A stretch of DNA of 64,000 bases from the NCBI RefSeq assembly GCF_018326005.1, contig NZ_AP021903.1, positions 1,800,001 to 1,864,000 on the forward strand. Direction: 5' to 3'. How positions within the stretch are numbered: the stretch's first letter is position 1; every line of letters starts with the position of its first letter. Below the pieces are notes generated by a model. That model made no database searches. It had not been told where the DNA came from and was given only the letters and a program-made list of their open reading frames with translations. Shown here piece by piece: positions 6,167 to 62,408 of this stretch. This DNA is from Pseudomonas sp. Seg1. GTDB taxonomy: Bacteria; Pseudomonadota; Gammaproteobacteria; Pseudomonadales; Pseudomonadaceae. Both the position numbers and the translations under genes were made by a program.

Positions 6167-6535
6167 TTACGCTTCCGGCTGAACGTTATCCAGCGCCTGA
6201 TTCACCGCCAACTCAGTCAGCATGACGATTTGCGCTATGCCCAGCGCGGTCTTGCGGTGTGAGGTATCGAGCACGGCGGCGAAGTTGTTGAGCATCTCTG
6301 TGACCGAGCCGAGGGTTTCGCTGGCATTGGCCAGCAGGGATTCGGTGTCGTACACCGGGTTGGCGAGGTACATCGGTTCAGATACGCGGGTGGACGCCAT
6401 GATGTGGGCGGTCGGTTTCAGGTAATGGTCGAGGGCGCGGTCGGCCGCTTCGTTGAGTTTTTTGCTGTCGATGGAGACGTAGGGGGAGGTTGGGTCGGTA
6501 TTGGTTTCGGGGGGATTGGGTGTTGGCTTTTTCAT
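6167..6535 (-). CDS. DUF6124-like small protein, copy A
   Basis: A 122-residue protein beginning MKKPTPNPPETNTDPTSPYV, with a conserved core (SPYVSIDSKKLNEAADRALD) and a helical C-terminal half. No membrane segment or signal peptide is visible. The ATG at 6535 was chosen because the paralogue at 57682-58041 starts at the equivalent place (MFKPTPNPPETD) and because the reading frame upstream runs through the structured leader. I assign it to the Pseudomonas family I know as DUF6124; its function is unknown. It is opposite to the flagellar genes and sits at the left edge of the T6SS cassette. Its 5' region (6536-6773) carries the leader described separately. Confidence 0.75.
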   Translation of the reverse strand: MKKPTPNPPETNTDPTSPYVSIDSKKLNEAADRALDHYLKPTAHIMASTRVSEPMYLANPVYDTESLLANASETLGSVTEMLNNFAAVLDTSHRKTALGIAQIVMLTELAVNQALDNVQPEA

Positions 6536-6571: not shown

Positions 6572-6773
6572 GGTTTCCGGACGAAGAGGTGGCAGCTGTA
6601 CGCAGGTTGGAAACCCGGGCAGCGGCGACCCGGTCGACCCGAAGGTCTCCCGCGCACAGCCGCCATAACGGAGTGCACACATTCGAAGTGCGCAAGGATA
6701 CGTTATGAAAGGCGTGTACGCGCCACTAATACCCATCGGGGTTTCCAGTCCCGGTCGCTGAATTGGCAGCGAC
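6572..6773 (-). ncRNA. Structured 5' leader of the DUF6124-like gene, copy A
   Basis: Read on the minus strand this region holds, in order: a 7-bp hairpin (6754-6760 with 6767-6773); an 'up' word (6739-6747); a hairpin-prone spacer closed by 6665-6670 with 6701-6706; the 5' side of an outer stem (6656-6665); a GACC-UUCG-GGUC hairpin (6636-6647); a 'mid' word (6608-6616); the 3' side of the outer stem (6590-6599); and a 'down' word (6572-6578). Mid (TGGAAACCC on the + strand) is complementary to up (GGGTTTCCA) and to down (GGTTTCC). The only mismatch in the 10-bp outer stem is a G-U wobble in minus-strand RNA but A-C on the plus strand, which fits transcription toward the gene. The class is inferred; this could be a cis-regulatory element rather than a separate RNA. 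Confidence 0.6.
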
Positions 6774-7114
6774 GTGCACAGCCTAGAGAGCGGACGTCCG
6801 ACGGACAACCTGAAAACCTTGTGGGACGGTTCTGTATTTTTCAGTAGTCGTTAAACATTCCACATTGAAATACACAGGGTGCCGCACATCAATCGGAGCA
6901 CTGTTTGCCGCGAAATTTGAGATTGTGATTTGGCCGCCATTGATCTTCGGTTGAGGGGAGATTTTCTAATTCGCGACACGTCCTACAAGTGTTGACGAGT
7001 CTCCCTACATAAAATCATTAGCCCCCTTGTTAGCGTGCTTGCCAGTTTTCGCGAGCACAGACCAAGGACGGTTTGGACATCGCGCTCTTTTCCTCTTTGC
7101 TTAAGGATAAGCGT
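6774..7114. other. Intergenic region between the DUF6124 leader and vgrG
   Basis: About 340 bases without a credible ORF. It should contain divergent promoters for the minus-strand leader and for vgrG. A TTGACG at about 6993 followed by TAAAAT has too short a spacer for sigma-70. I see no GG-N10-GC sigma-54 site here. Confidence 0.5.
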
Positions 7115-57505: not shown

Positions 57506-57543
57506 CTTCATGCCTGAAGACATGTGTTGGCTGTGCCTCAGTT

Positions 57544-57633
57544 TTCGCGAGCAAGCCTGCTCCTACAGGTTTGGTAACTGCTCACAGGCTTGTGATTAAT
57601 GCATATCCCTGTGGGAGCGGGCTTGCCCGCGAA
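57544..57633. repeat. REPIN (imperfect inverted REP pair)
   Basis: The 26 bases at 57544-57569 are a near-perfect inverted copy of 57608-57633, whose core is GTGGGAGCGGGCTTGCCCGC, a typical Pseudomonas REP. The spacer is 38 bases. Confidence 0.85.
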
Positions 57634-57681
57634 GACCTCAGCAACCACAGCACAGCACTCAAGCCTTGTCAGACAGTCCTG

Positions 57682-58041
57682 CTACTGCGGCACCTGCAGA
57701 TTATCCAGCACCCGGTTCACCGCCAACTCCCCGAGCATGATCAGCTGCGCAATCCCCAACAGCGTCCGGCGCTGCGACGCTGGCAAGAGGTGGGCAAAGT
57801 CACTGGCAATGGTTCTTGCCGAAGCAAGGGTCTCGAAGGCATCGGCCAGCATCTCCTCGTTTTTGAAGTCCGCAGTAACGGCGTACATCCTGCGGGTTCT
57901 GCGGGGCGGTGGTGTGGACCCGGGCGGGCAGAGATAGTGATCGAGGGCGCGGTCGGCGGCGTCGTTGAGCTTTTTCGAATCGAGGGATTCGTAGGGGGAG
58001 GTGAGATCGGTTTCGGGCGGGTTGGGTGTTGGTTTGAACAT
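57682..58041 (-). CDS. DUF6124-like small protein, copy B
   Basis: A 119-residue paralogue of the protein at 6167-6535. It starts MFKPTPNPPETDLTSPYESL, shares DSKKLNDAADRALDHYL and ends LAVNRVLDNLQVPQ. No membrane segment or signal peptide is visible. ATG 58041 was chosen by homology of the PTPNPPET start; the frame is open 16 codons upstream but that part lies in the leader. It is convergent with the unknown ORF and flanked by a REPIN. Its leader (58078-58275) has the same architecture as that of copy A. Confidence 0.78.
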   Translation of the reverse strand: MFKPTPNPPETDLTSPYESLDSKKLNDAADRALDHYLCPPGSTPPPRRTRRMYAVTADFKNEEMLADAFETLASARTIASDFAHLLPASQRRTLLGIAQLIMLGELAVNRVLDNLQVPQ

Positions 58042-58077
58042 GGTGAGACTCCGTGGTTGATTTGGCCGCCACGGCTC

Positions 58078-58275
58078 ATCGCTAAACAAGTAAAGGTGGC
58101 GGCTGTACGCAGGTTAGCGATCCGGGTCACAGAAACCCCGGGTAGACCCGAAGGTCTCCCACGCACAGCCACCATGACGCCAATTGCAGATAGACAAAAA
58201 CTGCAATTGAGAATGGGCATGTTGCGTCTGTTAGATGCCGGATCGCTAAACCCGATCGCTGATTCGTCAGCGATC
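58078..58275 (-). ncRNA. Structured 5' leader of the DUF6124-like gene, copy B
   Basis: This has the same order of elements as the leader at 6572-6773: hairpin (58254-58262 with 58267-58275); 'up' word (58238-58249); a 9-bp hairpin (58181-58189 with 58201-58209); outer stem (58165-58174 with 58097-58106); GACC-UUCG-GGUC hairpin (58145-58156); 'mid' word (58114-58125); 'down' word (58078-58085). Mid (TTAGCGATCCGG) is fully complementary to up over 12 bases, and its first 8 bases to down (ATCGCTAA). These words differ from copy A, yet the pairing is kept. The single outer-stem mismatch is again a wobble only in minus-strand RNA. Confidence 0.62.
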
Positions 58276-58406
58276 GCACCACAATAGAACCCGCCCCCAA
58301 GGCGCACAAGCCGGCGGATTCTGGCGTAGCTGTAGGCAATTACGCAAGGTCGTGTAGCCTGATTACGTGTCTTGCCGTGTCACTTAAACGAAGGTGTTTA
58401 AAAACA

Positions 58407-58470
58407 AAAATCGCAACGTTCGGCAGCGTCTACATCGATCCATGTAGGAACTGCCGAAGGCGGCGATCTT
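58407..58470. repeat. REP-like inverted pair
   Basis: The 28 bases at 58407-58434 are an imperfect inverted copy of 58442-58470, whose core ATGTAGGAACTGCCGAAGG is a known type of Pseudomonas REP. The rest of 58276-58658 contains no convincing gene. Confidence 0.7.
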
Positions 58471-58658
58471 TGATTTTCTCTCCGTCAGATCCGAGCCTGA
58501 ACATACTGGGCCAACACAGCCATCATGCAGCGACATCACGGCCCTTCGCCGACGTTATATCGAACTGACCAGACTCTCCATCGAAAGCGTTAGCCCATCT
58601 CAATAGGACTCATGCTGGTTACTAATCATAAAAAGAGCGACTGTTTCAGGTACAACTT

Positions 58659-58718: not shown

Positions 58719-61700
58719 TCAGGTAGTTTTTTTTTGATCGGGAACGTACATGGCCACACCGTGTTTCTGGTCGTTCAACCGACTGAATTGGAGACTCCAA
58801 TCTTTTGTAAAAGGAAGATAGCCTGTGCAGAATGCCTGCTCTCTATCCTGAAACGTCTGACTAGGCCCATGCCACCAGACGGCTTCTGGGTAATGCGCGG
58901 TAGCGGTGAATTTTGTATTCATGACTTTCATGTGATGAGAGCGTTCGTGAACTGGGATTGGTTCCGCACCAACGCTTTGCGCCCATACGAGGTATTCCTC
59001 ATGATTGAATTTCTGATTATTGGAAGATACGTAATGGGCCACATTGGAAACGGTGACGGGGAACTCCTTAATTTGATTCGCCTGGTCTCGAACTCTGATA
59101 GTGGTGCTTCCGTTGCCTTGACTTCTGACGATACCGAGAAGGCGATCAACCGAAGCAATGCGCTCGTCGAGGGATTCATAGATATAAGGAGGAACCCCAC
59201 CTTCGGCACTACGATCGAACGCGGTTCCGATAGGATCGACGCCAGTCAGGACCCATGGCAGTCCCGAGCCTTCGATTGATATGTTGTGCCCGTTGATTCT
59301 GAGCAGGGACGGATCCACGATAAGTTCAGGACGCGTCATTACGGTTAATGTCCTTGCGGCAGATGTCTCCCCCGGAGCGTACAGCGCCTTGGCGGTGAAA
59401 CTGTGCAGCGCGGCGTTCAGTTCTTTCACCTCAAGTTCCCAACGGCCGTTATCGGCACGCACCTCCGCTATACCTTTGGACGTCGGCCCGTCAAAGATCT
59501 CGACTTTCAGGCGCGGTGTACCGCCGCCGGTCAATTTGAGTGAGGTATCGTACGTCTTGCCGTTAGAGGGAATTTCAATGCCTGTCGAGTCTTTCACCGA
59601 GGTGATGCTTGGCTTGATGGCATTGGAAAGGGTGACGACTCTGCCAAGCGATACCTGCCCCGTACCGTACAGCGCCTTGGCAGTGAGCGTGCGAGTACCA
59701 ATGGCGGTCAGTGTGATTTCGCAGGTCCAGATGCCACCGGCATTGACCGGGTGTTTACCTTTAGTGGCAGCTCCCTCGAACACCTCGACTTCCTGAAGCG
59801 GTGCCGCAGTGCCGGTCAGTTTGATCTTCGGATCGACCGTGCCACCGTAATTCGGAATGTCTTCACCCTTGGAATCCTTCACCGTGCTGATCACCGGTTT
59901 CACATCCTGCACGGCTTTGACGTTGTAAACGCGCGACGGGAAGGTCACGGCTTTGGCTTCATCGGGGCTGCCGTCGAAAGTGACCTTGAACTCGATTTTC
60001 AGTGTCGAGTTGTCCTTGAGACCGCGCAACTCGGCCACCGGTGTCGCCGGGTAAGGCCCTACGATCACGCCATCACCGCGTAGAGTTTCCCCCTCATAAG
60101 TCGTTTTTTTGTACTCCGATCCATCGGCTTTGGTGCCGCTGTAGCGCAGCCAGATTTTCTGATTCGCAGCAATCAAAGGCCAGGCAGCCACGCGGGTGGA
60201 CGCATTGGCCAGGGCGGTCACATCGAGATCATCGTTGGACGCGCCATCGATGGTTGCCTTGGGCAGTTCGGCATGTTCTTGCGGGATCGCCAGCACCGTC
60301 AGCGGCAAAACCTTCGAAGGCACCGGCGCACCACCGCGCGTCACGGTGTAACTCACCGTCACCGCTTTGCCCAGGTTGAAGGCCACGACCGCGTTCTTCA
60401 GCGGGATCGATTGTGGCCCCAGCGTGGTCACGGTTTTTTTCGCGGAGGTGTCCGAGCCGTTCGGTGGCGTGCCGGTCCAGGTGACGATGATGTCGTCACC
60501 GAGGGCCATGCCGGTGTAGTCGACGATGGCGGTCAGGCTGTCCTTGGCTGCCAATGGATTGAGGCTGGTGCTGCCATTGGCCTCCTTGATCTTCGGTGCG
60601 TCCAGACCCAGCGCCGCGCCAATACGCAACGTCAATTCATGCGAGTTCCCTACCGTCGCCCCCGCCCGCTGAATGCTGTAATCAGCGACCACCGTGCCGT
60701 TGAGGTTGGCCGTCACATATTGCTTGGCCACGGTGATGCGCACAGGCTTGCCGGCGGTGGCGGGGATCAGGTCGATATGGCCGCTGGTGCTGCCGCCGCT
60801 GGCCGAACCGCGCCAGCGCCAGGTCACGCGGTCCTTGTCGCGGGTGCCCAGGTACGGCACCACCAGCGTGGCGCCGAGCGGCGGCACTTTGTCCGGATCG
60901 AGCACGTCATTGTCTGCGCCCTCGACTTCCGGTCGGTCAAACGTCGGCAAGGCCACGCCGACCTGCATCGGAAATACCAGCGATTCGCGCACGCTCAGCA
61001 GCGCCGTTTCGCTGTTGGTGACGGTGTAAAAGACCTTGACGTTCAGGCCGTTGAAGCGCCGGATTTCGGCATTGCTCACGTTGCGTTGGACGGGCTGGTT
61101 TTCCGCGATGTCGCCGACCGGACGCGGATCTTCGTAATAGACGGTACTACCACCCGGCGCCTGGGCCTGCCAGATCAGATTGATCAGGTCGCTGCTGTTG
61201 CGGCCGGGATACCAGGGAATGTTCACCGTCGCCCAAGGTGTCTCCGGCGGCAAAGTCCCACCCGGGGCCTCGTCCACGGTTGGTTCACGCAGTTGGCTGA
61301 TGTCACCAATCACCGGGACGCTGGCGTTCTTCGAAGGGCGGTCGGCTGCACCGCTGCGCTTACAGACATAGCCGACCGAGGCGCTGCCCTTGGCGATGGC
61401 CCTGACCGATGCATTGGGAATGGGAAATTTCAGAGGAAACGATACGACCGCGACCGGCAATTCAAGTGGCCCGACGATGATCTGCGAGCCTTGCGCCGGG
61501 GTGCCTGTCCAGGTCAGGAACACCTTGTCACCGACCTTGAAATCAGCTGCCGGCGTGTTGACGAGGACCTCCACATCGTCATCGCCGAGCTGATCGAGAT
61601 TGATGCTGTTGGCCGGCTGGCCTTTGACCAGCACCAATGGAACGTCCAGTCGATTGCCGCCCAGATCCACCAGCACTTTGCGAATGGCCGACCACGGCGC

Positions 61701-62408
61701 GCGCTCGTCCGGGTAGTTGCCGCAGCGGTCGATGACCTGATAAGCCACCGCCACTTCCGGGCCATCACCCGCCGTCTCGATCACGGCGCGACTGAACACC
61801 ACGTCGATTGGATGGCGGACCGGGTCCAGGGCCTGTTCCGGCGTGACGACGTGAGTGACTTGCTGACTGCCCCAGCGGGCGAGGATGCGATCGTAGCGGG
61901 TGAGGTTGCGGTAGGGCACGATGCGCATCGTCACGCCCTTGGCCGGCAGGTTTTGGTCAACCTCGTCATGGTCGAGGGAAAACTTCAGATCGGAGTGGCC
62001 GTCATCGCCAGCGATGTCATCGTATTCGCCGGGCCGCGTGAGCTTGACCAGCAGGACCAGTTCGGGTTTGGAGTCTTCCTCCGTCTGGTTCTTGTAGGTG
62101 ATCCGGTAAAACACCGGCTTGGCCTCGCCGTCGAGCACGTGGGCCTTGGGAATGGTGAACGACAGGTCCTTGTTGAGCTCGATATCGAGATCGAGGGTCT
62201 TGCTCCAGATTGCCGTCGTGGCATTGCCCCAGAACACCTCGGCCTTGTCGCCAATGTTCATGTTGAACCAGGCGGGGATGATGCCTTGCAGGTCGTCTTC
62301 CACCGCCCGGATGGGAATGCCACCGTTGTAATGCTCGGCGGGAGTCAGGGTGACCAGCGTGGGGAAATACAGCGGTTTGAGGGCTAGCGGATGTTGGGAC
62401 GTGGTCAT
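58719..62408 (-). CDS. Large Ig-like repeat protein, function unknown
   Basis: A 1229-residue, beta-strand-rich protein. No signal peptide is seen at the start (MTTSQHPLALKPLYFPTLVT). The body has repeated Ig-like units of ~90-100 residues. Two adjacent ones near residues ~850-1040 are clearly related (STVKDSKGEDIPNYGG... and TSVKDSTGIEIPSNGK...), each ending in a TAKALY strand. Another recurring phrase is TWTGTP. A unique C-terminal ~110 residues, rich in His/Trp/Tyr (AVWWHGPSQTFQDREQAF), follows a Big-like domain. Cell-surface or injected roles are both possible. It is opposite to the flagellar genes and sits between flhB and flhA. Confidence 0.75.
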   Translation of the reverse strand: MTTSQHPLALKPLYFPTLVTLTPAEHYNGGIPIRAVEDDLQGIIPAWFNMNIGDKAEVFWGNATTAIWSKTLDLDIELNKDLSFTIPKAHVLDGEAKPVFYRITYKNQTEEDSKPELVLLVKLTRPGEYDDIAGDDGHSDLKFSLDHDEVDQNLPAKGVTMRIVPYRNLTRYDRILARWGSQQVTHVVTPEQALDPVRHPIDVVFSRAVIETAGDGPEVAVAYQVIDRCGNYPDERAPWSAIRKVLVDLGGNRLDVPLVLVKGQPANSINLDQLGDDDVEVLVNTPAADFKVGDKVFLTWTGTPAQGSQIIVGPLELPVAVVSFPLKFPIPNASVRAIAKGSASVGYVCKRSGAADRPSKNASVPVIGDISQLREPTVDEAPGGTLPPETPWATVNIPWYPGRNSSDLINLIWQAQAPGGSTVYYEDPRPVGDIAENQPVQRNVSNAEIRRFNGLNVKVFYTVTNSETALLSVRESLVFPMQVGVALPTFDRPEVEGADNDVLDPDKVPPLGATLVVPYLGTRDKDRVTWRWRGSASGGSTSGHIDLIPATAGKPVRITVAKQYVTANLNGTVVADYSIQRAGATVGNSHELTLRIGAALGLDAPKIKEANGSTSLNPLAAKDSLTAIVDYTGMALGDDIIVTWTGTPPNGSDTSAKKTVTTLGPQSIPLKNAVVAFNLGKAVTVSYTVTRGGAPVPSKVLPLTVLAIPQEHAELPKATIDGASNDDLDVTALANASTRVAAWPLIAANQKIWLRYSGTKADGSEYKKTTYEGETLRGDGVIVGPYPATPVAELRGLKDNSTLKIEFKVTFDGSPDEAKAVTFPSRVYNVKAVQDVKPVISTVKDSKGEDIPNYGGTVDPKIKLTGTAAPLQEVEVFEGAATKGKHPVNAGGIWTCEITLTAIGTRTLTAKALYGTGQVSLGRVVTLSNAIKPSITSVKDSTGIEIPSNGKTYDTSLKLTGGGTPRLKVEIFDGPTSKGIAEVRADNGRWELEVKELNAALHSFTAKALYAPGETSAARTLTVMTRPELIVDPSLLRINGHNISIEGSGLPWVLTGVDPIGTAFDRSAEGGVPPYIYESLDERIASVDRLLGIVRSQGNGSTTIRVRDQANQIKEFPVTVSNVAHYVSSNNQKFNHEEYLVWAQSVGAEPIPVHERSHHMKVMNTKFTATAHYPEAVWWHGPSQTFQDREQAFCTGYLPFTKDWSLQFSRLNDQKHGVAMYVPDQKKTT

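Follow-up and report, generated by a model that had tools for sequence, protein, structure and literature searches.

C4-type antisense RNAs in the leaders of multiplied DUF6124 genes of Pseudomonas

The leaders of copies A and B

The window, the whole 64,000-nt stretch analyzed here from the genome of Pseudomonas sp. Seg1 (contig NZ_AP021903.1), holds two related leaders, termed copy A and copy B. In copy B, the leader of a DUF6124 gene carries a C4 antisense RNA preceded by an a1b1 element, and copy A belongs to the same family. The words are named after P1/P7 usage (a', b', a1/b1 and a2/b2) as given in the available text of PMC5320573. The features of both loci, in window coordinates, are as follows.

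Copy B
58254..58275, minus strand: upstream hairpin GATCGCTG-ACGAAT-CAGCGATC, the 5' portion of the c4-a1b1 element
58235..58287, minus strand: c4-a1b1 element, RF03163 (44.7 bits, gathering score 46.7, E 6.1e-10, local scan)
58238..58250, minus strand: a1 word TTTAGCGATCCGG, duplex with a' of -23.3 kcal/mol
58226..58232, minus strand: candidate b1 word AACAGAC, proposed from reading the sequence, about 5 bp with the b' loop
58181..58209, minus strand: inverted repeat CAATTGCAG / CTGCAATTG with a T-rich loop, between a1b1 and C4 (from folding)
58092..58179, minus strand: C4 antisense RNA, RF01695 (64.8 bits against a gathering score of 45, model positions 1-87 of 87)
58127..58136, minus strand: b' word GTTTCTGTGA, the loop of hairpin 2, complementary to the Shine-Dalgarno region
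58114..58125, minus strand: a' word CCGGATCGCTAA
58078..58086, minus strand: a2 word TTTAGCGAT
58049..58055, minus strand: b2 / Shine-Dalgarno CACGGAG, which pairs with the b' loop
57682..58041, minus strand: DUF6124 gene (PF19619), 119 aa (67 bits, cut-off 27)

Copy A
6733..6786, minus strand: c4-a1b1 element (52.9 bits, over the cut-off)
6585..6670, minus strand: C4 antisense RNA (68.0 bits)
6167..6535, minus strand: DUF6124 gene, 122 aa (67.1 bits, cut-off 27, domain scan on 6167-6520)

Copy B thus scores above the RF01695 gathering threshold over the full model. Upstream a1b1 targets are present in both copies, over the cut-off in copy A and just under it in copy B, and the b2 of the downstream a2b2 falls on the ribosome-binding site. 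Copy B pairs strongly through a1; its b1 is weak and hard to see, and is not the best duplex in the energy computation. In P1/P7 C4, b' occludes the ribosome-binding site and a' binds upstream of it, and the 5' end is matured by RNase P at a GG motif, as described in the available sections of PMC5320573. The 5' side of the outer stem reads GGT in copy B and GGC in copy A. No sigma-70 promoter was found at the threshold of the scan.

The original prediction held that the leader of copy B repeats the elements of copy A in the same order, and all of these elements are indeed present, on the minus strand. Its 'up', 'mid' and 'down' segments, with 'up' and 'down' complementary to 'mid', are the a1, a' and a2 words, the 12-base 'up' lying within TTTAGCGATCCGG. 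What it missed were the Rfam C4 family, the minus strand and a second covarying word that pairs with the ribosome-binding site. Copies A and B both have the 11-nt gap it counted from the outer stem to 'down', but this is no rule: 85 loci in two genomes show distances of 7 to 13 nt. The two halves of the open reading frames (ORFs) of copies A and B are 0.69 and 0.63 identical, with a C4 identity of 0.80 and no dip in C4.

The copy B unit is flanked by REP-like repeats, which we take to be of the kind common in Pseudomonas, at window positions 57540-57640 and 58440-58475. The long ORF adjoining it (58719-62408, minus strand, 1229 aa) has sub-threshold matches to bacterial Ig-like domains.

Covariation of both words with their targets

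The RNA duplex energy of each C4 with its own targets was compared with that obtained on the targets of other loci, using 10,000 partner shuffles. Over the 38 loci of the window's genome, own and other energies were -16.14 and -10.36 for b':b2, -13.26 and -9.43 for a':a2, and -18.92 and -14.02 for a' with the upstream target, none of which was reached by any of the 10,000 shuffles. The pairing of b' with its upstream target was weaker there (348 of 10,000), and the mismatched controls gave 7278 and 5556 of 10,000. The genome-wide tabulation of words that the original prediction proposed as a check covered these 38 of 38 copies and 50 of 53 loci in a second genome, where all four pairings stood at 0/10,000 (controls 3344 and 9009). 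It was extended to the best 30 of 42 and best 30 of 41 loci in two further genomes, again with four pairings at 0/10,000 (controls 5281/5565 and 9666/7710), as well as to named genomes and viral contigs, and the segments covary in every set tabulated. Among the single genomes, three pairings were thus at 0/10,000 in all four, and b' with its upstream target in three.

A pooled set was assembled from 218 C4 loci: 38 and 50 from the first two genomes, 54 from viral contigs and 76 from a named-genome set, in which 77 Pseudomonas loci have genes 81-92% identical to that of copy B and 76 of these have a C4 match upstream. Three loci at contig ends or containing N were dropped to leave 215, and removal of L010 and 88 repeated b' words left 126 loci with unique words. 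Cognate and non-cognate energies were -14.62 and -9.15 for b':b2, -12.75 and -9.63 for a':a2, -18.23 and -14.08 for a' with its upstream target, and -13.52 and -12.10 for b' with its upstream target, each at 0/10,000, and the mismatched controls showed nothing (8097 and 7585 of 10,000). Uninterrupted runs of at least seven pairs were found in 85/126 own against 30/504 cross pairs for b':b2, and in 117/126 own against 46/504 cross pairs for a':a2. These results support the claim that base pairing has been selected, with changes matched across three segments: the cognate a' pairings on both sides beat every partner shuffle. The covariation has exceptions, as counted in two genomes: an own a':a2 run of at least six is present in all but one of 86 loci, whereas a b':b2 run of six near the start codon is absent from 22.

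The compensatory change noted between the two upstream hairpins is real and is part of a wider pattern. Across 35 leaders of the window's genome (35 of its 37 a1b1 matches, those left out being the loci without a scored C4), 99.0% of cells in the hairpin and short a1 stem pair, and five pairs change on both sides. The covariation score was reached by 0 of 500 shuffles, and slid controls paired in at most 44.2%. Together, these data establish a conserved architecture in which both words covary with their upstream and downstream targets, and in which b' is directed at the Shine-Dalgarno sequence.

Some copies do look broken, such as L010, which is nearly without a gene, and L028, whose ORF appears frameshifted, as might be expected were the leader merely a repeated non-functional element whose likeness stems from duplication. 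This reading is already contradicted by the covariation of four pairings against null controls; in addition, none of the 37 DUF6124 matches in the window's genome contains an internal stop, the exact words of copy B recur in seven of the named genomes, and the A and B ORFs are only 63-69% identical, so that a recent duplication of a dead repeat is vanishingly improbable.

The position of the b':b2 pairing bears on how the RNA would act. A run of at least six near the start codon is found in 64 of 86 loci, and in 52 of these 64 it ends 5-10 nt before the start. It could be supposed that C4 mainly causes premature transcription termination, as P4 CI RNA does with seqA and seqC, and that the translation block is secondary. 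Consistent with this, targets flank the antisense RNA on both sides, as told for P4 in the accessible portion of PMC4825925, a1b1 and C4 are separated by an inverted repeat whose loop is T-rich, and in phage phiAH14b C4-like DNA lies some 1 kb past an AlpA regulator gene. The leader also resembles the IsrK family (RF01394) weakly, at 30.2 bits for copy B and 28.4 for copy A against a gathering score of 50. Against it, the aim of b' at the Shine-Dalgarno sequence is not needed for termination alone, and termination as the chief mode of action is judged rather unlikely.

C4 and DUF6124 across genomes

In the window's genome (6.63 Mb, one contig), 38 C4 loci score over the cut-off. DUF6124 gives 37 matches there at E up to 0.01, of which 36 exceed its cut-off. 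A DUF6124 gene follows within 520 nt downstream on the same strand in 31 of the 38, a linkage count that covers this genome. The other seven C4s lead DUF3077 (L003), a Bro-N antirepressor (L006), a gene that is nearly gone (L010), and small proteins without a Pfam match (L002, L029, L037 and L038). Matches to c4-a1b1 number 37 at E up to 0.1, with 17 over the Rfam cut-off; 35 of the 37 precede a C4 of this genome, and L002, L036 and L038 are the three C4 loci that lack one. At that E limit, 6 of 14 control genomes also show sub-threshold matches to the RF03163 model.

In a sample of the genus, C4 is found in 53 of 59 genomes (0-53 copies), DUF6124 in 46 and DUF3077 in 44. Totals over the 59 genomes at E up to 1e-5 are 1012 C4 and 681 DUF6124, with a Spearman correlation of 0.85. 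Across the class, C4 was found in at least 17 of 273 other genomes among the best 15 candidates scored per genome, with at most six matches listed for each; these figures are lower bounds, 15 of the 38 C4s of the window's genome being listed by the same procedure.

Several loci depart from the common arrangement. Genomes G009, G025 and G057 have 38, 28 and 22 C4s but one DUF6124 each, with 3, 16 and 14 DUF3077; given its few DUF6124 and DUF3077 genes, most C4s of G009 must lead other genes. The gene behind L010 (C1:3470875-3470961) is almost wholly deleted, and a DUF6124 reading stretch with no scored C4, L042 (C1:3464454), lies about 6 kb away. At L039 (C1:6408469-6408887), an a1b1-like element stands directly 5' of a DUF6124 gene with no C4 scored between, and this gene should lack its own repressor. 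A C4-led protein of genome G049 (L077:440-952, minus strand) has the DUF6124 N-terminal motif TPNPPE, after which the remainder resembles, by eye, the Bro-N protein of L006. Finally, at L195, L197-L199, L205, L208 and L209 the C4 lies about 530-550 nt 5' of DUF6124, as if the first gene of an operon stood between.

The DUF6124 protein

The structure model of the copy B protein is of moderate quality (pLDDT 75.4, pTM 0.48), with a confident two-helix hairpin (61-83/88-113) and a helix at 22-37, and points to no function. PADLOC, PHROGs and NCBIfam gave no useful match for DUF6124 proteins, no solved structure matched the DUF6124 profile at E up to 1, and no paper in the searched literature names DUF6124. 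A common origin of the C4-led proteins (DUF6124, DUF3077 and a third small family) was considered and rejected, as profile comparison returned E values of 0.059 to 0.15 and a probability below 1%, the DUF3077 profile having been built from three sequences only.

Private words within a genome

All b' words are distinct in the window's genome (38 of 38) and among the 50 examined in the second genome (50 of 50), and distinct a' words are fewer, at 25 of 38 and 37, respectively. The first two genomes alone have two b' words in common and none repeated within either. As this is too thin to assess word reuse, two further genomes and the named-genome set were used. Over the four genomes (148 of 174 C4 matches), both members have the same b' word in 1 of 2798 within-genome pairs, compared with 40 of 8080 between-genome pairs, 38 of the 40 also having a' in common. 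Shuffling of genome labels gave a mean of 10.6 within-genome b' repeats and a minimum of 3, and 0 of 1000 shuffles were as low as 1. The single exception is L343/L344, two loci of one genome with the same words, an identical C4 and ORF regions 91% identical. From the named-genome set, 75 loci with a full-length C4 were compared over 32 genomes, a non-random sample picked by similarity to copy B; the same b' word occurs in 0 of 83 within-genome pairs against 164 of 2692 between-genome pairs, with 4 of 1000 shuffles as low, and a' alone is repeated within a genome in 7 of the 83.

Word pairs are hardly ever repeated among the copies of a genome, and the main target of each C4 is therefore probably its own gene. 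When targets are ranked by a crude sum of two energies over tight windows, the own target comes first for 27 of 36 C4s in the window's genome (L010 and L033 left out). In the second genome it does so for 31 of 45, five having been omitted because of an unusual start distance. For copy B itself, the sum is -23.7 with its own target against -23.2 with that of its nearest paralogue, L012, a margin of 0.5 kcal/mol. By these equilibrium duplex energies, which ignore kinetics and structure, the predicted insulation between C4s is incomplete. For P1/P7, a deviation of 4 nt is enough to restrict cross-reactivity, according to the available text of PMC5320573 (citing Citron and Schuster 1990).

Divergent leaders and movement of units

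Seven pairs of loci, chosen for high gene identity except for copies A and B, were compared segment by segment. The clearest is L014/L020, neighbours about 0.9 kb apart, which are nearly identical far upstream (0.96), in the promoter and hairpin (0.97), in both halves of the ORF (0.97 and 0.99) and downstream (0.97), whereas the leader between falls to 0.69 from a1b1 to C4, 0.77 in C4 and 0.67 in a2b2. Five other pairs have ORFs 0.89-0.97 identical, promoter regions 0.83-0.97 and leaders 0.53-0.83. Their outer flanks are 0.49-0.82 identical, in most no closer than the leader, and L014/L020 alone among the seven has outer flanks so similar. Where gene identity exceeds 0.80 (34 pairs in the window's genome and 48 in the second), mean b' identity is 0.626 and 0.624, compared with 0.586 and 0.630 over all pairs. 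These patterns suggest that word-bearing leaders have been exchanged, or have diversified, faster than the ORFs behind them. Words recombine with scaffolds, as in L020 and L024, which have a common scaffold and a' but different b'.

Among 12 named loci compared, homology to copy B spans at most about window positions 57681-58403 where copy B's words are present. Only one of the seven loci with these words (L108, P. chlororaphis EA105) has the neighbour gene within 1.5 kb, and at L109 and L124 units with other words stand at copy B's neighbour gene. The unit thus moves together with its words.

Words might instead differ within a genome only through old paralogy, gene conversion having homogenized the ORFs in the absence of any selection for insulation. 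That words are kept across species indicates that word identity is old, and both the recombination seen at L020/L024 and the existence of a recent copy with unchanged words (L343/L344) would fit such a history. To account for L014/L020, however, conversion must skip the leader from both sides, leaving 67-77% identity amid flanks and ORF of 96-99%, and within-genome word reuse lies below all 1000 shuffles. A purely historical origin of the word differences is accordingly held to be possible, though on the less likely side.

Viral contigs, phages and plasmids

Relatives of DUF6124 are encoded at 69 viral-contig loci, with a C4 just upstream in 54, further upstream in seven and none detected in eight. 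Nine of the 54 units carry a word pair known from a chromosome, eight having that of L004 and one that of L055. The L004 pair occurs at L172, L173, L175, L179, L186-L188 and L210, all within 2.5 kb of a contig end, as if prophages had inserted beside that unit.

A pattern search for C4 gave 50 matches in 46 viral-contig stretches. A b' word known elsewhere in the analyzed set is carried by 17 of the 50, and 14 of these have that of L045 (genome G049): L240, L242, L243, L246 (two), L247, L248, L258, L264, L268, L270, L280, L281 and L285, mostly before ORFs that by eye are DUF3077-like. None of the 50 carries a b' word of the window's genome. Similar 52-aa ORFs stand behind the viral C4s L244, L249, L252, L253, L257, L267, L269 and L274, and may be a counterpart of P1 icd. 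C4-like DNA is also present in five phage and two plasmid records. Searched with the copy B protein as query, 50,697 phage records yielded DUF6124 in one and 72,556 plasmid records in none.

As to the possibility raised earlier that the words match phage targets, words of other C4s of the family do occur in viral contigs. For copy B it is not supported: its a1 word in its hairpin context is present in 0 viral contigs, and the phage-target idea for this copy was rejected on that count together with the phage and plasmid records. More broadly, the units could be remains of prophage immunity regions that now guard against phages with the same words. In keeping with this, the C4 of L006 precedes a Bro-N antirepressor, viral C4s precede apparent antirepressors, 52-aa ORFs and DUF3077-like genes (as read from translations), and the upstream C4s of viral DUF6124 loci, the nine word pairs known from a chromosome and the recurring b' words would fit it as well. 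The near-absence of DUF6124 from phage and plasmid records, the lack of copy B's a1 word in viral contigs and the lack of the window genome's b' words among the 50 pattern-found C4 matches argue against it, as does the placement of all eight L004-word units where host flank would be. A present role as guards against phages is consequently regarded as improbable.

Proposed mechanism

The reading preferred here, and held to be very probably correct, is that a C4-type antisense translational off-switch in the DUF6124 leader has been multiplied in Pseudomonas with private words, each copy silencing mainly its own gene. The leader RNA runs in the order hairpin, a1 (and b1), the folded C4 with b' and a', a2 and b2 (the Shine-Dalgarno), and ORF. 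By analogy with P1/P7, C4 would be cut out of the leader transcript, with RNase P acting at its 5' end, and would then pair in trans with a2 and b2 and block translation, while a1b1 may compete for or modulate C4. In Pseudomonas, the unit has multiplied to dozens in many genomes.

A bolder extension is offered tentatively, being more doubtful than likely. Under it, the units would form an RNA-addressed repertoire of silent genes, in which dozens of DUF6124 effectors each stand under a private two-word C4 key. Reuse of a key within a cell would be selected against and whole keyed leaders would be swapped between units, the set of keys serving as an identity code at the RNA level that decides which gene is freed on meeting a matching decoy or on loss of a unit.

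Comparison with known systems

In the passages available from the cited papers, C4 figures mainly as an RNA of phage immunity, and a single bacterial case with multiple copies is described. As far as its available text goes, PMC2864571 tabulates the c4 antisense RNA for Proteobacteria and phages, and c4-a1b1 for gamma-Proteobacteria and phages. Sets of many C4s with variable words are already known, having been published for Acinetobacter. As far as the searches go, the cis-linked DUF6124 arrays, the four-way covariation and the near-absence of within-genome word reuse are new; no report of Pseudomonas C4 arrays was found in the searched literature, a body that leaves most subscription journals outside. 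With its many natural sets of matched words, the family lends itself to studying how short antisense words keep their specificity within one cell, and both the role of DUF6124 and the reason for any copy-by-copy silencing become directly testable.

The CI RNA of satellite phage P4, as described, resembles the present RNA as a processed antisense RNA with targets on both sides, but CI RNA acts by transcription termination (PMC4825925, available text). IsrK of the Salmonella prophage Gifsy-1 is a leader RNA that resembles the a1b1 part, although the leaders of copies A and B fall short of the gathering score of its family and IsrK is described as an activator of orf45/anrP.

The Group 1 C4-derived sRNAs of Acinetobacter baumannii are closer, with 21 C4-like RNAs in one chromosome and a variable word, and are reported as expressed and apparently processed (PMC5320573, available text). 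Their targets are left open in that text, whereas the Pseudomonas C4s are cis-linked to the target gene, and, according to it, their region 1 shows very little homology with the sequence upstream in P1/P7. The same source names a' as the variable part (a' and b' in its discussion); in Pseudomonas, both words covary with both targets.

The closest counterpart is the P1/P7 C4 itself (RF01695, RF03163), which has in common with the Pseudomonas elements the covariance-model match, the upstream a1b1, the a' and b' words, a b' directed at the ribosome-binding site and the position in the leader before a gene. In contrast, the Pseudomonas elements are chromosomal, number dozens per genome and mostly precede DUF6124 rather than icd/ant. 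Their b' is also the more diverse word (38 distinct against 25 a'), while a' is named as the specificity word in the available text of PMC5320573. The leader of copy B is thus a real and functional-looking feature of a known RNA family, in a setting that is unusual and, within the reach of the searches, unreported.
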